Assembly (NCBI GenBank): GCA_016196035.1
Contig: JACPYM010000050.1
Coordinates: forward strand, 1 to 51,492
Source: Acidobacteriota bacterium
Lineage (GTDB): Bacteria; Acidobacteriota; Blastocatellia; RBC074
DNA: 51,492 nt
Direction of reading: 5' to 3'
Shown piece after piece: positions 19,889 to 45,600 of this stretch (positions are counted from its first letter, which is position 1; every line of letters begins with the position of its first letter). The notes below the pieces were generated by a model. The model had not been told where the DNA came from. It searched no databases and saw only the letters and a program-made list of their open reading frames with translations. Made by a program: the position numbers and the translations under genes.

Positions 19889-20214
19889 TGGTTGGAAAGT
19901 CCCTTCACTTCTTTGTGCAATGCCCTGATTTGCTCTTCAGACAAATCTGCTTGTTCGTTCTTGGCGTATATGTCGAGCATGATAATCACATCTTCCGCCA
20001 CCACCCAAAAATAGATTACTCGCGCGCCGCCACTTTTGCCACGCCCAGGCAACGCCACGCGCACTTTGCGAATGCCGCCGCCGCCTTTGATGAGATCGCC
20101 TACTGCGGGAAATTCCGCCAGTTGGAGTTGAAGCTTGGCATACGCCTCATCGCTGAGCAGTTCAACGACGCGTTCGGAAAACCGCTTTGTTTCTCGAAAG
20201 GCCAGTAACTTCAT
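19885..20214 (-). CDS. RelE/HigB-family toxin
   Basis: A 109-residue protein with KGGGGIRKVRVALPGRGKSG followed by GARVIYFW and LDIYAKNEQADLSEEQI is the hallmark of the RelE-like toxin family PF06296 (COG4737). These are usually ribosome-dependent mRNA interferases encoded before their antitoxin. The ATG at 20214 overlaps the ubiD stop by 4 bases (ATGA); an in-frame ATG at 20232 would overlap ubiD more. The toxin stop overlaps the next start by 4 bases as well, so ubiD, toxin and partner gene are likely translationally coupled. No promoter of its own is evident. Confidence 0.8.
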   Translation of the reverse strand: MKLLAFRETKRFSERVVELLSDEAYAKLQLQLAEFPAVGDLIKGGGGIRKVRVALPGRGKSGGARVIYFWVVAEDVIIMLDIYAKNEQADLSEEQIRALHKEVKGLSNQ

Positions 20215-21665
20215 AACCCCAACTTCTTCCACTTTGCATCAACCATCTGCTTCACCTCAGCGCTCGTCTGATTCTCCTTCGGCCAGCGCCGCGTGAAGCC
20301 TTCCGCTTTCCATTTGCGCGTGCCGTCAATGCCCATCTTCGAGCCGAAGCCCATCTGGCGCGCGGCGTGATCGAGCACGTCAATCGGCCCCAGCATGAAT
20401 TGAATGTCGCGTTCGGGGTCAATGTTGTTGAGCACCTTCCAGGCGACTTCGCTGTAATTCTGCACGTCCACGTCTTCGTCAACAACGACGATGCATTTGG
20501 TGAACATAGCCTGGCCCATGCCCCAGATGGCGTTCATGATTTTGCGCGCGTGGCCGGGGTACTGCTTGCGAATCGAGACGAGCATCAGATTGTGGAAGAC
20601 GCCTTCAAACGGCAGGCACATATCCACGATCTCCGGGAACTGGCGTTTCAACACCGGGAAGGTGATGCGCGTGATGGCCCAGCCCATCCAGCAATCTTCC
20701 ATCGGTGGTTTGCCGACGATGGTCGCCTGATAGATCGGATTGCGCCGGTGCGTGACGGTCGTGACGTGAAAGACGGGATAGGGTTCTTCCAAAGTATAAA
20801 AGCCGGTGTGATCGCCGAAAGGCCCTTCAATACGGCGTTCGGCGGGATCAACGTAACCTTCCAACACAATCTCGGCGGTTGCGGGCACTTCCAAATCCAC
20901 CGAGACGCACTTGACCAACTCGATGGGCTTTTCGCGTATGAAGCTGGCAAAGATCATCTCATCCAGATCGTCGGGCAACGGCAGCGTCGCGGCAAACGTC
21001 GTCATTGGGTCGCCGCCAATCGCGACGGCGACTTCCATGCGTTCGACGCCTTTCTTCTCCAGTTCGCGGTGATGCGCTGCGCCGTGTTTGTGCATCTGCC
21101 AATGCATGCCGGTCGTGCATTCGTCGTAAACCTGCATGCGGTACATCCCGACGTTGCGTGCGCCCGTGCGCGGGTTGCGCGTGAAGACCATCGGGAAGGT
21201 GATGAAGCGCCCGCCATCGGCTTCCCAGCATTTCAGGATCGGAAAGTCGAACAGGTTGAATTCGCCCGCGCGTTTGATGACTTCCTGACACGGGCCGGCT
21301 TTTACCTCTTTCGGAAAGTACTTTCCCAACTCGGCCAGCTTCGGCAGCATCTTGACCTTCGCCAGCAAGCCGGTCGGCGATTTGAAATCGAGCCATTCGG
21401 TCAGCCGCGCGGCCACGTCGTCTACGCTCTCGGTGGCGAGCGCGATAGCCATGCGGCGCTGGCTGCCAAAGGCGTTGATGAGCACGGGAATATTGCCGCC
21501 GTCTACGTTTTCAAACAGCAAGGCCTTGTTGCCGTCTTTGGCTTTCGAGACGCGGTCGGTGATCTCAGTGATTTCCTGATCGCTGCTGACGGGGGTTTTG
21601 ATGCGTTTAAGTTCGTTGTGTTTTTCGAGCGCGCGGATGAATTCGCGCAAGTCTGCATAAGCCAT
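20211..21665 (-). CDS. ubiD: UbiD-family decarboxylase
   Basis: This 484-residue prenylated-FMN-dependent (de)carboxylase is probably cytosolic. The family decarboxylates 4-hydroxy-3-polyprenylbenzoate in ubiquinone synthesis, or the corresponding intermediate in menaquinone (MqnL-like) or aromatic metabolism. Characteristic segments are KALLFENVDGGNIPVLINAF, EGPFGDHTGFYTLEEPYPVF, NPIYQATIVGKPPMED and the C-terminal FGSKMGIDGTRKWKAEG. The length fits the family (about 490). No ubiX or quinone gene is adjacent, so the exact substrate is uncertain. The leader holds the AGGGGCTAGGGGCTAGT repeat (21686-21702). The stop overlaps the toxin start. Confidence 0.9.
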   Translation of the reverse strand: MAYADLREFIRALEKHNELKRIKTPVSSDQEITEITDRVSKAKDGNKALLFENVDGGNIPVLINAFGSQRRMAIALATESVDDVAARLTEWLDFKSPTGLLAKVKMLPKLAELGKYFPKEVKAGPCQEVIKRAGEFNLFDFPILKCWEADGGRFITFPMVFTRNPRTGARNVGMYRMQVYDECTTGMHWQMHKHGAAHHRELEKKGVERMEVAVAIGGDPMTTFAATLPLPDDLDEMIFASFIREKPIELVKCVSVDLEVPATAEIVLEGYVDPAERRIEGPFGDHTGFYTLEEPYPVFHVTTVTHRRNPIYQATIVGKPPMEDCWMGWAITRITFPVLKRQFPEIVDMCLPFEGVFHNLMLVSIRKQYPGHARKIMNAIWGMGQAMFTKCIVVVDEDVDVQNYSEVAWKVLNNIDPERDIQFMLGPIDVLDHAARQMGFGSKMGIDGTRKWKAEGFTRRWPKENQTSAEVKQMVDAKWKKLGL

Positions 21666-21685
21666 AATAGTCGGGTCTTGGGATT

Positions 21686-21702
21686 AGGGGCTAGGGGCTA
21701 GT
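21686..21702. repeat. 17-bp repeat, left copy flanking the four-helix-bundle gene
   Basis: AGGGGCTAGGGGCTAGT is the exact inverted complement of 22093-22109. The adjacent TTGGGATTAGGGGCT (21678-21692) recurs with one mismatch inside mfd at 44921-44935. Confidence 0.8.
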
Positions 21703-21723
21703 GTCCCTGGCCGGAGTCCGAAT

Positions 21724-22092
21724 TTATTGCAATTTCGCGCGCAGGGGTTTTTGCAGGCCGCGCAGCATTTTGCCGAGTTCATCGGCTTTTGCAGTGATCA
21801 GTGTTTGGGATTCAGCGGTGAGATACCCGAATTGTTGAGCAAGAAGTATTTGAGTTTCTACTTCAGCCAAAGAACCGAGCGCAAAGGAAAGATGGTGTAG
21901 AAACTCTTTGGTCGAATCGCGCGCATGACCTTCAGCGATGTTTGAAGGAATCGAAACAGCAGCACGTTGAAGCTGGCTACAAAGACCGAAAGTTTCAGCC
22001 TTCGGAAAGTCACGCGTGACTTGATAGACATCGGCAGCCAACGCCATCCCCATTTGCCAAACCTTCAAGTCTTTGTAGCTCGCCACACTCAT
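21724..22092 (-). CDS. Four-helix-bundle protein of the 23S rRNA intervening-sequence family
   Basis: This 122-residue helical protein has the family signature (TIGR02436/PF05635): SYKDLKVWQMGMALAADVYQ, RDFPKAETFGLCSQLQRAAV, SIPSNIAEGHARDSTKEFLH and SLAEVETQILLAQQFGYL. Relatives are encoded in intervening sequences of 23S rRNA and as stand-alone genes, and Avd of diversity-generating retroelements shares the fold and binds nucleic acid. The function of the stand-alone forms is not established. The ATG directly abuts a 17-bp repeat (22093-22109) whose inverted copy lies 22 bases beyond the stop, so the gene is framed like a cassette. No ribosomal RNA or reverse transcriptase is nearby. Confidence 0.88.
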   Translation of the reverse strand: MSVASYKDLKVWQMGMALAADVYQVTRDFPKAETFGLCSQLQRAAVSIPSNIAEGHARDSTKEFLHHLSFALGSLAEVETQILLAQQFGYLTAESQTLITAKADELGKMLRGLQKPLRAKLQ

Positions 22093-22109
22093 ACTAGCCC
22101 CTAGCCCCT
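22093..22109. repeat. 17-bp repeat, right copy flanking the four-helix-bundle gene
   Basis: ACTAGCCCCTAGCCCCT is a perfect inverted copy of 21686-21702. It abuts the start codon of the four-helix-bundle gene, so read on the minus strand its AGGGG units occupy the ribosome-binding position. Confidence 0.8.
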
Positions 22110-22125
22110 CTCCCCCAGCCCCTTC

Positions 22126-22752
22126 TCACGGATTCCATTTGCGGAAGGCGTAATGCGGAGCGACCGCCAGGCTCAGCCGTTCGTAATCGGCGGGTCGGTC
22201 AATGTCTTCCAGAATGCTGGGCGCATCCACCGGCACTTCCAGCACTTCATCGGGATAACGGTCGAGCAGCGCCTTCAGTCCATACGGCACATCGTCGGGC
22301 AGCAGCATCAACTCTTCCTCAAAGTCAGTGCTGAGGATGATGGGATGCCCGCGCTTGCCGTCGTGTGTCGGGATGACGATGCGCTTTTTGCCGTTGCGAT
22401 AAGCGTCAATCAACTGGTTGATGACGGCGCTGGTGATCATCGGTTGGTCAACCAGGGCGATCAAGACGGCTTCGGTTGCCGGGGCGATTTGCCCCCAACC
22501 GGTCTTGACCGAACTGAACATGCCTTTTTGATAATTGGGATTGATGACGTATTGCACGCCCGCGCCGGCCAGCCGTTGTCGCACGTCGAGTTCGCGGTGG
22601 CCCAGCACGACGAAGATTTCATCGAGTTTGGAATCGTGCAGTTGCTGCACGCATTCGCCGATGACGGTGCGCGTGCCCCATTTCAACAGGGGTTTGAACG
22701 CGCCCTCCATGCGCTTCGATTCGCCGGCGGCCAGCAAAATTCCTGCGATCAT
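22126..22752 (-). CDS. MobA/MocA-like nucleotidyltransferase
   Basis: This 208-residue cytosolic enzyme of the NTP-transferase fold probably transfers CMP or GMP to a molybdopterin-type cofactor (MocA/MobA family). The signature LLAAGESKRMEGAFKPLLKW (G-rich loop plus catalytic Lys) lies at residues 5-24; VLIALVDQPMI holds the metal-binding Asp, and GKRGHPIIL matches the GHPV motif of MocA proteins. Start 22752 has AGGAGG about 10 bases upstream; the frame opens further upstream but without a ribosome site. It is last in the minus-strand cluster after three small membrane genes, but the 87-base gap leaves operon membership open. Confidence 0.82.
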   Translation of the reverse strand: MIAGILLAAGESKRMEGAFKPLLKWGTRTVIGECVQQLHDSKLDEIFVVLGHRELDVRQRLAGAGVQYVINPNYQKGMFSSVKTGWGQIAPATEAVLIALVDQPMITSAVINQLIDAYRNGKKRIVIPTHDGKRGHPIILSTDFEEELMLLPDDVPYGLKALLDRYPDEVLEVPVDAPSILEDIDRPADYERLSLAVAPHYAFRKWNP

Positions 22753-31029: not shown

Positions 31030-31101
31030 AGTAGTCAGTAGTCAGTAGCCAGTAGTCAGTAGAAATTTCTACTGACTACTGGCTACTGACTACTGACTAC
31101 T
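31030..31101. repeat. 72-bp perfect palindrome
   Basis: Bases 31030-31065 and 31066-31101 are exact complements with no loop bases. Each arm is itself made of repeated AGTAGTC/AGTAGCC units (AGTAGTCAGTAGTCAGTAG). It fills the 88-base gap between the SurA-like stop and the YhaM-like start and would form a very stable hairpin in the transcript. Confidence 0.9.
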
Positions 31102-31109
31102 GCTCCTGA

Positions 31110-42666: not shown

Positions 42667-45600
42667 TCAAACGCTGTATTGCAAGGCTTGCAGTACGGCG
42701 CTCAACACCGCAAACACCTGTTGATCTGCATTCGCGGCGTCTTTCGCTTCCAACTTCACCTTCAGCACGCCGCTCGGCGTAAAGCTCACCGCCGGATTTT
42801 CCGCCAGCAGCTTCATCAAGCATTCCGGTTCGACGCGCGCTTTGTCGCTCAGCTTCAGCGCCAGATTCGCGCCCGTGCGGTCAATCGAAACGATGCCGAG
42901 TTGGTTGGCCTCGCGCCGCACACGGGCGTACAGGAACAGGTTCTCAACAGATTCAGGCAGGCGGCCATAGCGGTCGGCGACTTCTTCGTGGATGCGTTGC
43001 AAATCTTCATCTGTCTTGGCTGAAGCGATACGTTTGTAGGTGCGCAGCCGCTGGCTCATATCAAATACGTATTCTTCCGGGATGCGTGTGTCCACGCCCA
43101 GGTTGAGTTGCGTGTTGAGGTCTTCTTCAATCGGTTCGCCACGCAATTCCTGGACGGTGCGTTCGAGCATCTGCGTGTAAAGGTCAAAGCCCACCGCGTC
43201 AATCTGACCGGATTGTTGCCCGCCCAGCAGGTTGCCCGCGCCGCGTAATTCCAAATCTAACGCCGCGATGCGAAAACCCGCGCCGAGATCAGAGAATTCG
43301 CGGATCGCGGCCAAGCGTTTGCGCGCGATGGGTGTCAATTCCTGTTCCGGTGGAATCAGCAAATAGGCGTAAGCGCGGCGGCTGGCGCGACCCACGCGAC
43401 CGCGCAACTGATAAAGCTGGGACAAGCCGTAATTGTCAGCGCGGTTGATGATGATGGTGTTGGCGCGCGGAATGTCTATGCCGTTTTCGATGATGGTGGT
43501 GGCGACCAGCACGTCGAATTTGTAAGCCACGAAATCCAGCACGGCCTGCTCCATCTCTTTTTCGCCCATCTGGCCGTGCGCCACGATGTAGCGCGCTTCG
43601 GGCACGATGCGTTTGAGCAGCGCGGCGACTTCTTCGATGGATTCGACGCGGTTGTGGACGAAGAAGACCTGGCCCTGGCGCTGCAATTCCAATTCGATGG
43701 CGCTGCGGATAACGGCGTCGTTGAAGGGCACGACGTTGGTTTGAATCGCCAGGCGGTCGCGCGGCGGCGTTTCGATCACGGACATATCGCGCATGCCCAG
43801 CAGCGACATGTTCAGCGTGCGCGGGATCGGCGTGGCGCTCATGGTCAGCACGTCCACGCGCTTTTTGATTTGTTTGAGCCGTTCTTTATGGGCGACGCCG
43901 AAGCGTTGCTCTTCGTCCACGATGACGAGGCCGAGTTCCTTGAAATTCAAGTCGCGCGACAGAATGCGATGCGTGCCGATGACGATGTCCACCGCGCCGG
44001 TTTCGATGCTGGCGACGACTTCCTTTTGTTCTTTGGGCGAACGAAAGCGCGAGAGCAATTCGATCTTGGCGGGGAAGGCGGCAAAGCGCGCTTTGAAATT
44101 CTGATGATGCTGATAGGCCAGCACGGTTGTCGGCGCAAGCACGGCGACTTGTTTGCCATCCATCACCGACTTGAACGCGGCGCGCATTGCCACTTCGGTT
44201 TTGCCGTAACCGACATCGCCGCACAGCAGGCGATCCATCGGCTGGGGCTGCTCCATATCGTTTTTGACATCGGTGATGGCGGTCGCTTGGTCAACCGTTA
44301 ATTCGTACGGGAAAGCATCCTCGAATTCCTGCTGCCAGGGCGTGTCACCGCTGAAAGCGAAGCCGGTGACCAATTTGCGCTCGGCGTAAAGCTTCAACAG
44401 CTCTTCGGCCATGTCGCGCATGGCGCGTTTGACGCGGGCCTTGGTCTTGGCCCAGGCAATACCGCCCAGCCGATCCAACGAAGGCGAACCAGTCTCGCTG
44501 CTGGCAAATTTCTGAACGAGATCGAGGCGTTCGACGGGTACGTAAAGCTTCGCGCCGTCGGCGTAAGTGAGCAGCATGAATTCGCGCTTGCTCTCGGCTT
44601 TCTCGCCACCCGCGCCGATCATCCGCGCGTAAATGTCGGCGGAAGTTTCCGGCCCCGCCATGTCAATTTGCAGCAAGCCCTGGAACTGCCCGATGCCGTG
44701 GTCAATGTGGACGATGTAATCGCCGATCTTCAGGTCGCGGAAGTCCGATAGGAACGCGCCGAGCTTGAAGCCTTTGCTCTTGGCCTGCGTGCGGGACGCG
44801 CGGTCGGTGTGGACGGCTTCGTCAAAGATGTCAGCTTCGGTGTAAACGGTCAGCTTGGAATTAGGCAGGGCGAAACCGACGGAAAGGTCACCCACAGTGA
44901 GCGTGATAGGGGCTAGGGGCTTGGGACTAGGGGCTTCGTCTGTGCCTGCGATGCCGGTGACTTGGTATTCGGTCAGCGTTTTGCGCAGGCGGTCGGCGAC
45001 CCCAGTGCTGGGCAGCACGAAGATCGTTTGCTGACCGAAGGCGGAGAGCTCTTTCAATTCGGCGGCCAAGTCGGGAATGCGCCCGTGCCAGCGGCGCACG
45101 GCGCGCGCGGATAGGTTGACCTCGAATGGTTTCGCTTCGGGCGGAAAGAGGAAGAGCGGCGCGCTGGTCGGGCGATTGACGAAGGCGGCAATGCGTTCGT
45201 GGGCGGCTCCGCTGGTGGCAATCATGGCGGCGGTGGTTGAAACGACTTCTTCCGTAGCGAGTTCCTCTTGCCGCGCGAGCGCCGCCGCGCCCAGCAAGTG
45301 CATTTCGACGCGCGGGACGTTTTCCAAGCGCGTGCGCAATTCATCCGGTGTCAGGAAAAGCTGTTCCGGCGGCAGACCCAATTCGTCGGTGCGTTCGGTG
45401 CGTTCGTAACCGTGCTGCAATTCGTCCAGCAGGCTGCGCAATTGCTTCTCGACTTCGGCGGGTTCGTCCACGACCAGCACGCAATCGCGCAAGTAATCAA
45501 ACACGGTCGCCGAGAGCGGACGCAGCAGCGGCAACAGATATTCCCAACCCGGAAACTCTTCGCCCTCGTCGGCAAAGACTGTGCGATCACGCAGGGCGCG

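Follow-up and report, generated by a model that had tools for sequence, protein, structure and literature searches.

In REP and REPIN systems with RAYTs, one small Y1 (HUH) transposase gene is accompanied by inverted short repeats and by many paired, gene-free intergenic copies. Cyanobacteria carry dispersed heptamer repeats known as STRR. A dispersed heptamer, GGGAATC, is described for Xanthomonas in the available part of one report (PMC4692102), and the available part of another states of dispersed heptamer repeats that "no mechanism is evident" (PMC4679880). Neither part names an encoding gene or a mechanism for the heptamers, and neither main text contains the terms S23 or four helix. The nearest precedent for the locus described here, within the portion of the source available, is the 23S rRNA intervening sequence of Coxiella, in which tandem heptamers precede an S23 open reading frame (ORF) within a stem and for which mobility was suspected (PMC4990558). 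Among the open-access papers searched, judged by their titles, the openings of their abstracts and the available parts of PMC4679880, PMC4692102, PMC4990558, PMC10053308, PMC3542288 and PMC8700078, none was found that links S23 genes to heptamer arrays in general.

We analyzed a stretch of 51,492 nucleotides (the window) from a Blastocatellia member of the Acidobacteriota, in which an S23 gene lies between two inverted tandem arrays. The cassette is real, and the sequence comparisons made here place it in a class of minimal mobile elements that is very widespread. As a whole, the observations are best explained if the S23 gene and its two arrays constitute one minimal mobile element, a reading to which we assign a probability of roughly 0.8.

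The S23 locus in the window

The relevant features of the window are as follows.

21724..22092, minus strand: S23 (four-helix-bundle) gene of 122 aa, the sole gene of the element (ORF and PF05635 match)
22093..22122, minus strand: array 5' of the S23 gene, with TAGGGGC units on the minus strand and a perfect arm at 22093-22109
21673..21702, plus strand: array 3' of the S23 gene, inverted, with a perfect arm at 21686-21702
22126..22752, minus strand: upstream host gene, a MobA-like nucleotidyltransferase, whose stop is 3 nt from the array
20211..21665, minus strand: downstream host gene, a UbiD-family decarboxylase (profile match)
31030..31102, no strand assigned: convergent pair without S23, consisting of (AGTAGTC)n, 6 nt and an inverted copy, which fills a tight junction of two minus-strand ORFs
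44907..44935, no strand assigned: solo TAGGGGC-type array that keeps the reading frame of mfd; it lies in a linker that varies and that three of five relatives lack

An initial annotation had described a perfect 17-bp inverted repeat around the four-helix-bundle gene. The repeat is confirmed: AGGGGCTAGGGGCTAGT occupies 21686-21702 and recurs as an exact reverse complement at 22093-22109. As described, one arm is directly adjacent to the start codon, but the other lies 21, not 22, bases past the stop. The annotation did not note that the repeat is a tandem array with the 7-nt unit TAGGGGC, or that a second array family, AGTAGTC, is present at 31030-31102. The inverted repeat extends imperfectly over 30 nt (21673-21702 and 22093-22122, 83%). 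The octamer TAGGGGCT occurs six times in the window against 0.34 expected, a count that 0 of 100 shuffles reach. These shuffles, together with the controls for S23 loci given below, exclude a chance or compositional origin of the repeat. The repeat variant that the annotation had noticed in mfd is also real; its array lies in a linker that is variable anyway, and an insertion there is likely.

The encoded protein scores 133.8 bits against PF05635 (cut-off 33.8) and 123.9 bits against TIGR02436 (cut-off 24). No match to it was found among phage records at an E-value of 1e-5.

Arrays and repeat units at other S23 genes

The genome that contains the window has 11 PF05635 matches, nine of them above the cut-off. 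Several of the other copies are bracketed by inverted tandem heptamers whose sequence is different in each. The octamer TAGGGGCT is therefore rejected as a general signal, because other S23 copies carry other units. As to the flanks of other copies, to which the initial annotation had pointed, TAGGGGC is absent from them, but most have inverted arrays of their own.

We surveyed the flanks of 96 of 139 S23 matches, in 24 genomes and chiefly the best-scoring (the 43 left out include L010, L011 and L054). By self-match scoring, arrays of one period (7, 8 or 9) are present in both flanks of 66 of the 96 loci, and the other 30 fail this two-sided test. Beside unrelated genes, where the annotation's proposal required the repeat to be less common, two-sided arrays were detected at 0 of 30 ParE loci taken from the surveyed genomes and, after a shift of 800 nt, at one of 188 positions. 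(The 30 ParE loci were sampled at a fixed place regardless of strand, seven shorter ones by approximation.) An inverted-match score of at least 12 was obtained for 79 of the 96 S23 loci, versus 0 of 30 ParE loci and three of 188 shifted positions.

These controls bear on the idea that 7-nt arrays arise everywhere by polymerase slippage and that S23 genes merely tolerate them. Such an origin would fit the wide variation in array length between S23 loci and, according to the available part of PMC4990558, the different numbers of heptamers in Coxiella strains. It would also fit one genome without an S23 match (G004), in which 0.18 Mb contains four heptamer arrays (L412-L421), all with the unit ACTCAGC; this case speaks for gene loss or against the rule. 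Against slippage stand the near absence of two-sided arrays from the control positions and the sampled parts of three other genomes without an S23 match (G018, G022 and G024), where 0.53 Mb holds 0 heptamer arrays. We consider this explanation extremely improbable.

The unit is 7 nt long in 71 of the 96 loci, 8 in 11 and 9 in three; none was called in 11, and none was obtained for L007, a copy from the window's own genome. On a protein tree built from 105 columns by a quick method, in which 44 of 93 inner branches are open, the three unit lengths track the protein and amount to four changes (85 scored rows). The 8-nt group requires three changes versus 10.6 in shuffles, with 0 of 500 shuffles as low, and the 9-nt group requires two versus 3.0, with 10 of 500 as low.

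Unit sequence, too, is specific to the copy. The upstream unit and the inverted downstream unit are within a distance of 0-1 in 64 of 78 copies but in only 66 of 2,000 random pairs, and the two arrays match in the same orientation as well at four of 78 loci. Across copies, the unit distance decreases from 3.5 at protein identities below 20% to 2.1 at identities of at least 60% (Mantel r -0.23; 0 of 2,000 permutations; n = 65). This link between unit sequence and protein is modest and visible mainly above 60% identity. Covariation of unit and protein is the pattern expected from a protein that recognizes its own ends, and we strongly infer such recognition here. Since the length of the repeat unit is predictable from the adjacent protein, which is a rare case for a DNA repeat, a recognition code is directly testable.

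To describe taxonomic breadth, we use the best 80 of 593 confirmed candidates, picked by one conserved motif. Among their 18 phylum labels are those of Methanophagales archaea and of several candidate phyla. As raw counts for these best 80 of 593, the best flank period is 7 in 60 loci, 8 in 14, 9 in three and another value in three; both flanks score at least 8 in 50 of the 80, and 30 fail. The two archaeal loci have weak or one-sided arrays. Xanthomonas possesses an S23 protein of known structure as well as the dispersed GGGAATC heptamer (PMC4692102), a coincidence noted before these loci were scored. GGGAATC-type units do flank the S23 gene of Xanthomonas vasicola, although with scores of 9 and 7 this locus is outside the 50. 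Units of the same type flank the S23 genes of L230 (Luteimonas), L231 and L232 (Rhodanobacter), and another Luteimonas locus (L234) has another unit.

Occupied sites, empty sites and arrays without S23

In plasmids, for which 12 of 30 records were used and the flanks of 11 read, five sites were identified where the S23 gene and both arrays are missing from a homologous plasmid, with neighbors that align at 82-98%.

Trichormus versus Nostoc linckia: plasmid empty-site pair with a clean junction
Nostoc plasmids: empty-site pairs at two sites
Picosynechococcus PCC 7003 versus 7002: plasmid site between cas10 and a Cmr3-family gene
Calothrix versus Nostoc carneum: plasmid empty-site pair

The empty alleles at all five sites contain no array. 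Junctions are clean at two of the five (Trichormus and the site of L165), where imperfect duplications of 7-8 nt are legible by eye. At the L154 site, about 36 extra nt follow the right array, and at two sites 32 or 11 nt of the allele without the element fail to align.

Three S23 elements on cyanobacterial plasmids (L152, L153 and L159) are located within CRISPR operons, twice between cas6 and cas4, with different units, and once between cas10 and the Cmr3-family gene.

The junction occupied in the window was examined in nine genomes of the family that have the UbiD gene in the locus, six of which have the transferase gene too. The empty site between ubiD and the nucleotidyltransferase gene that the initial annotation suggested seeking in relatives exists in G010, where the UbiD ATG is 3 nt after the transferase stop. 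The corresponding junctions of G003 and G006 are occupied by hairpins that lack S23, with units GGGGAGT and AAAAGGC, which are also the units of S23 copies in those genomes (L071 and L113). A weaker array is present close to the UbiD gene in G007, and the spacers of G002 and G005 are of other kinds. These relatives, with a protein identity of about 60%, are too distant for a target duplication to be read.

In Xanthomonas, S23 is present at one locus, which we take from translations and sequence motifs to be accB-accC, in 27 of 31 genomes; movement there is therefore rare. The other four have a match split around S23, and the three of these that were read all have an S23-less GGGACCC hairpin in its place. 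For two elements with 8-nt units, a one-piece match across S23 is found in only two of 31 genus genomes each. Among 18 loci read from these 62 genome rows, 16 are without S23, and two of the 16 (L372 and L361) have hairpins of other units where a sister genome has an S23 element with an 8-nt unit. The flanks of the S23-less relatives are 67-83% alike, which is too divergent for an exact target duplication of the 8-nt-unit elements to be read. The proposal of a mobile cassette is thus supported by sites without it in relatives at the plasmid loci, the window junction, Xanthomonas and the 8-nt-unit loci.

Arrays without an S23 gene were counted in 1.11 Mb of the window's own genome (the window itself and the starts of 60 contigs, about a ninth of the total), with a minimum score of 13. 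This sample has 52 heptamer arrays, and other periods from 5 to 13 give 1 to 16 each; period 14, the double of 7, gives 37. The only S23 match in the sample is that of the window, whose arrays score below 13 and were not counted. By a manual count, 26 of the 52 arrays form 13 convergent S23-less pairs with a unit distance of 0-1 and at most 80 nt between them. The AGTAGTC unit of the pair at 31030-31102 is that of an S23 copy on another contig of the same genome (L004, contig C123). More generally, 15 of the 52 arrays are exactly equal, allowing for rotation and strand, to a unit of eight own-genome S23 copies, as read by eye from their flanks. When eight units are instead drawn at random from other genomes, exact matches average 2.4, with a maximum of 13, and 0 of 1,000 draws reach 15. 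With one mismatch allowed, 32 arrays match versus a mean of 16.2, and nine of 1,000 draws are as high. A pattern count in this genome gave 19 sites versus 10 for the backward control; because the backward pattern also fits G-rich heptamers, this count is not clean, and the array counts above are relied on instead.

Arrays also occur as inserts on their own. One S23 gene on a Nostoc plasmid is interrupted by a 182-nt insert that has S23-type arrays and no S23 gene, and the family of this insert has 100 places in 43 plasmid records (for example, L166:884-1075 on plasmid pNPM1, with an internal hairpin). This insert and its family imply that arrays travel without the gene.

The initial annotation suggested that recombination at TAGGGGCT repeats moves or deletes the cassette and leaves solo copies. 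The inverted repeats and solo copies that led to this proposal do exist. However, half of the arrays counted in the window's genome form convergent S23-less hairpins, which resemble non-autonomous insertions more than deletion scars. The three S23-less Xanthomonas alleles that were read have a unit (GGGACCC) other than that of the gene's flanks (GGGAATC). Moreover, recombination between inverted repeats inverts rather than deletes. Because other S23 copies carry their own units and no array is present where plasmids lack the element, recombination at TAGGGGCT is not supported as a general mechanism, and we regard it as very unlikely.

Alternatively, the arrays could be operator sites of an S23 autoregulator or regulatory module, whose spread would be passive, through horizontal transfer and recombination. 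The array that abuts the start codon would be well placed for this role, and a unit that follows the protein would be expected as well. Passive spread of a regulatory module does not readily account for an S23 gene interrupted by an S23-less, array-ended insert, for the different hairpins that relatives have at the window junction, or for 52 arrays in a ninth of a genome that has 11 S23 matches in total. This explanation is unlikely, and a mobile element that consists of the gene and its arrays is preferred.

Proposed mechanism and comparison with known systems

An AF2 model of the window's S23 protein has a pLDDT of 97.2. Its closest solved fold is 2GSC, and 2RLD, whose entry is titled as a protein with unknown function, also matches. 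The available part of PMC4990558 describes 2GSC as a pentamer. Avd of diversity-generating retroelements (DGRs) is a weaker fold match than either (TM 0.77-0.80 and 9-12% identity to 4DWL chains). Near-invariant residues of S23 proteins include Q40, R43, S47, N51 and E54 in helix 2 and R58 just after it, as well as W12 and Y23 in helix 1 and S74 and E77 in helix 3; this face may be catalytic or may stabilize the oligomer.

Both host genes at the window locus run in the same direction as S23 (minus strand). Among loci callable by an ORF-length rule, S23 is in the sense orientation with both neighbors in 63 of 88 and 54 of 70, and is opposite to both in five of 88 and five of 70; 18 further loci are unclear. 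Operon genes share such a same-direction bias, so these counts say only that S23 placement is non-random relative to transcription.

The fold, the orientation and the predicted structure of the transcript could together suggest a retro-element. In this reading, S23 would bind a transcript that is folded through its arrays, in the way that Avd binds DGR RNA, and a reverse transcriptase acting in trans would then copy and insert that transcript. The S23 fold matches that of DGR Avd and of chains of the DGR ribonucleoprotein. Also, the two arms pair in the predicted fold of the window transcript (z -4.5), and 0 of 100 shuffles fold as well. The distribution of reverse transcriptases argues in the other direction. 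Of 25 genomes in which S23 is matched, nine give no match to RVT_1; one of these is G012, whose listed completeness is 100 and which has nine S23 matches. The window contig likewise has no RVT_1 match. The nine genomes weaken the idea that S23 depends on a reverse transcriptase encoded alongside it, and such a partner seems not to be required for S23 elements. We regard the retro-element as a doubtful sub-case of the mobile-element reading.

The comparisons show that the proposed mobile element occurs as a block in certain genomes and is missing from the matching gene junction in relatives, and that its ends are inverted tandem arrays of a 7-, 8- or 9-nt unit. The S23 protein would recognize the repeated unit, as DNA or as an RNA stem, and would mobilize its own element and, in trans, S23-less hairpins; cutting and joining may be the work of S23 or of a host enzyme. 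Insertion may leave an imperfect duplication of 7-8 nt, as read by eye at two sites. S23 expression probably depends on host-operon read-through, which would explain the sense orientation of the gene.

A broader hypothesis is that S23 is a new kind of mobility enzyme whose step, 7, 8 or 9 nt long, determines the repeat unit as well as the target duplication. The elements would then be a class of minimal mobile DNA that spans bacteria and certain archaea, and its known fragments would be rRNA intervening sequences and dispersed heptamers. We offer this hypothesis tentatively, and it is more probably wrong than right in this full form. The mobile-element reading itself would provide a function for a widespread protein family that has no assigned role, would account for the origin of dispersed heptamer repeats and would give rRNA intervening sequences a place.

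Insertion sequences with fixed terminal inverted repeats have ends that are alike among members. S23 elements differ in this respect, as the units of random pairs of copies are different at three or four of seven positions in 1,508 of 2,000 draws.

Compared with DGR Avd, the window's S23 protein shares the fold, but it scores 37.1 of the required 80 bits against NF033474 and is encoded on a contig that lacks a reverse transcriptase (RVT_1) match.

The S23p-encoding 23S rRNA intervening sequences of Coxiella and Leptospira resemble the window element in having an S23 ORF inside terminal inverted repeats that pair. The window element is located outside rRNA, between genes for a MobA-like transferase and a UbiD-family protein. 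The available part of the published account of intervening sequences (PMC4990558) describes neither dispersed hairpins nor a general occurrence of inverted arrays that are specific to each copy.

Dispersed heptamers (STRR, GGGAATC of Xanthomonas and TAACTGA of Beggiatoaceae) are arrays of the same kind as those flanking S23 genes, and S23 elements may explain the dispersed heptamer repeats of many genomes.

REP/RAYT systems have in common with S23 the paired, gene-free copies dispersed in the same genome, here the 13 convergent pairs. They differ in that no HUH/Y1 transposase is matched by the S23 protein of the window (Pfam at an E-value of 0.001 yields PF05635, bAvd below its cut-off and nothing else), and in that the ends of S23 elements are tandem arrays of 7-9 nt that differ from copy to copy. 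Judging from sequence patterns, we conclude that S23 and its cognate arrays would work like REP/RAYT, with non-autonomous dependents and with no known transposase.
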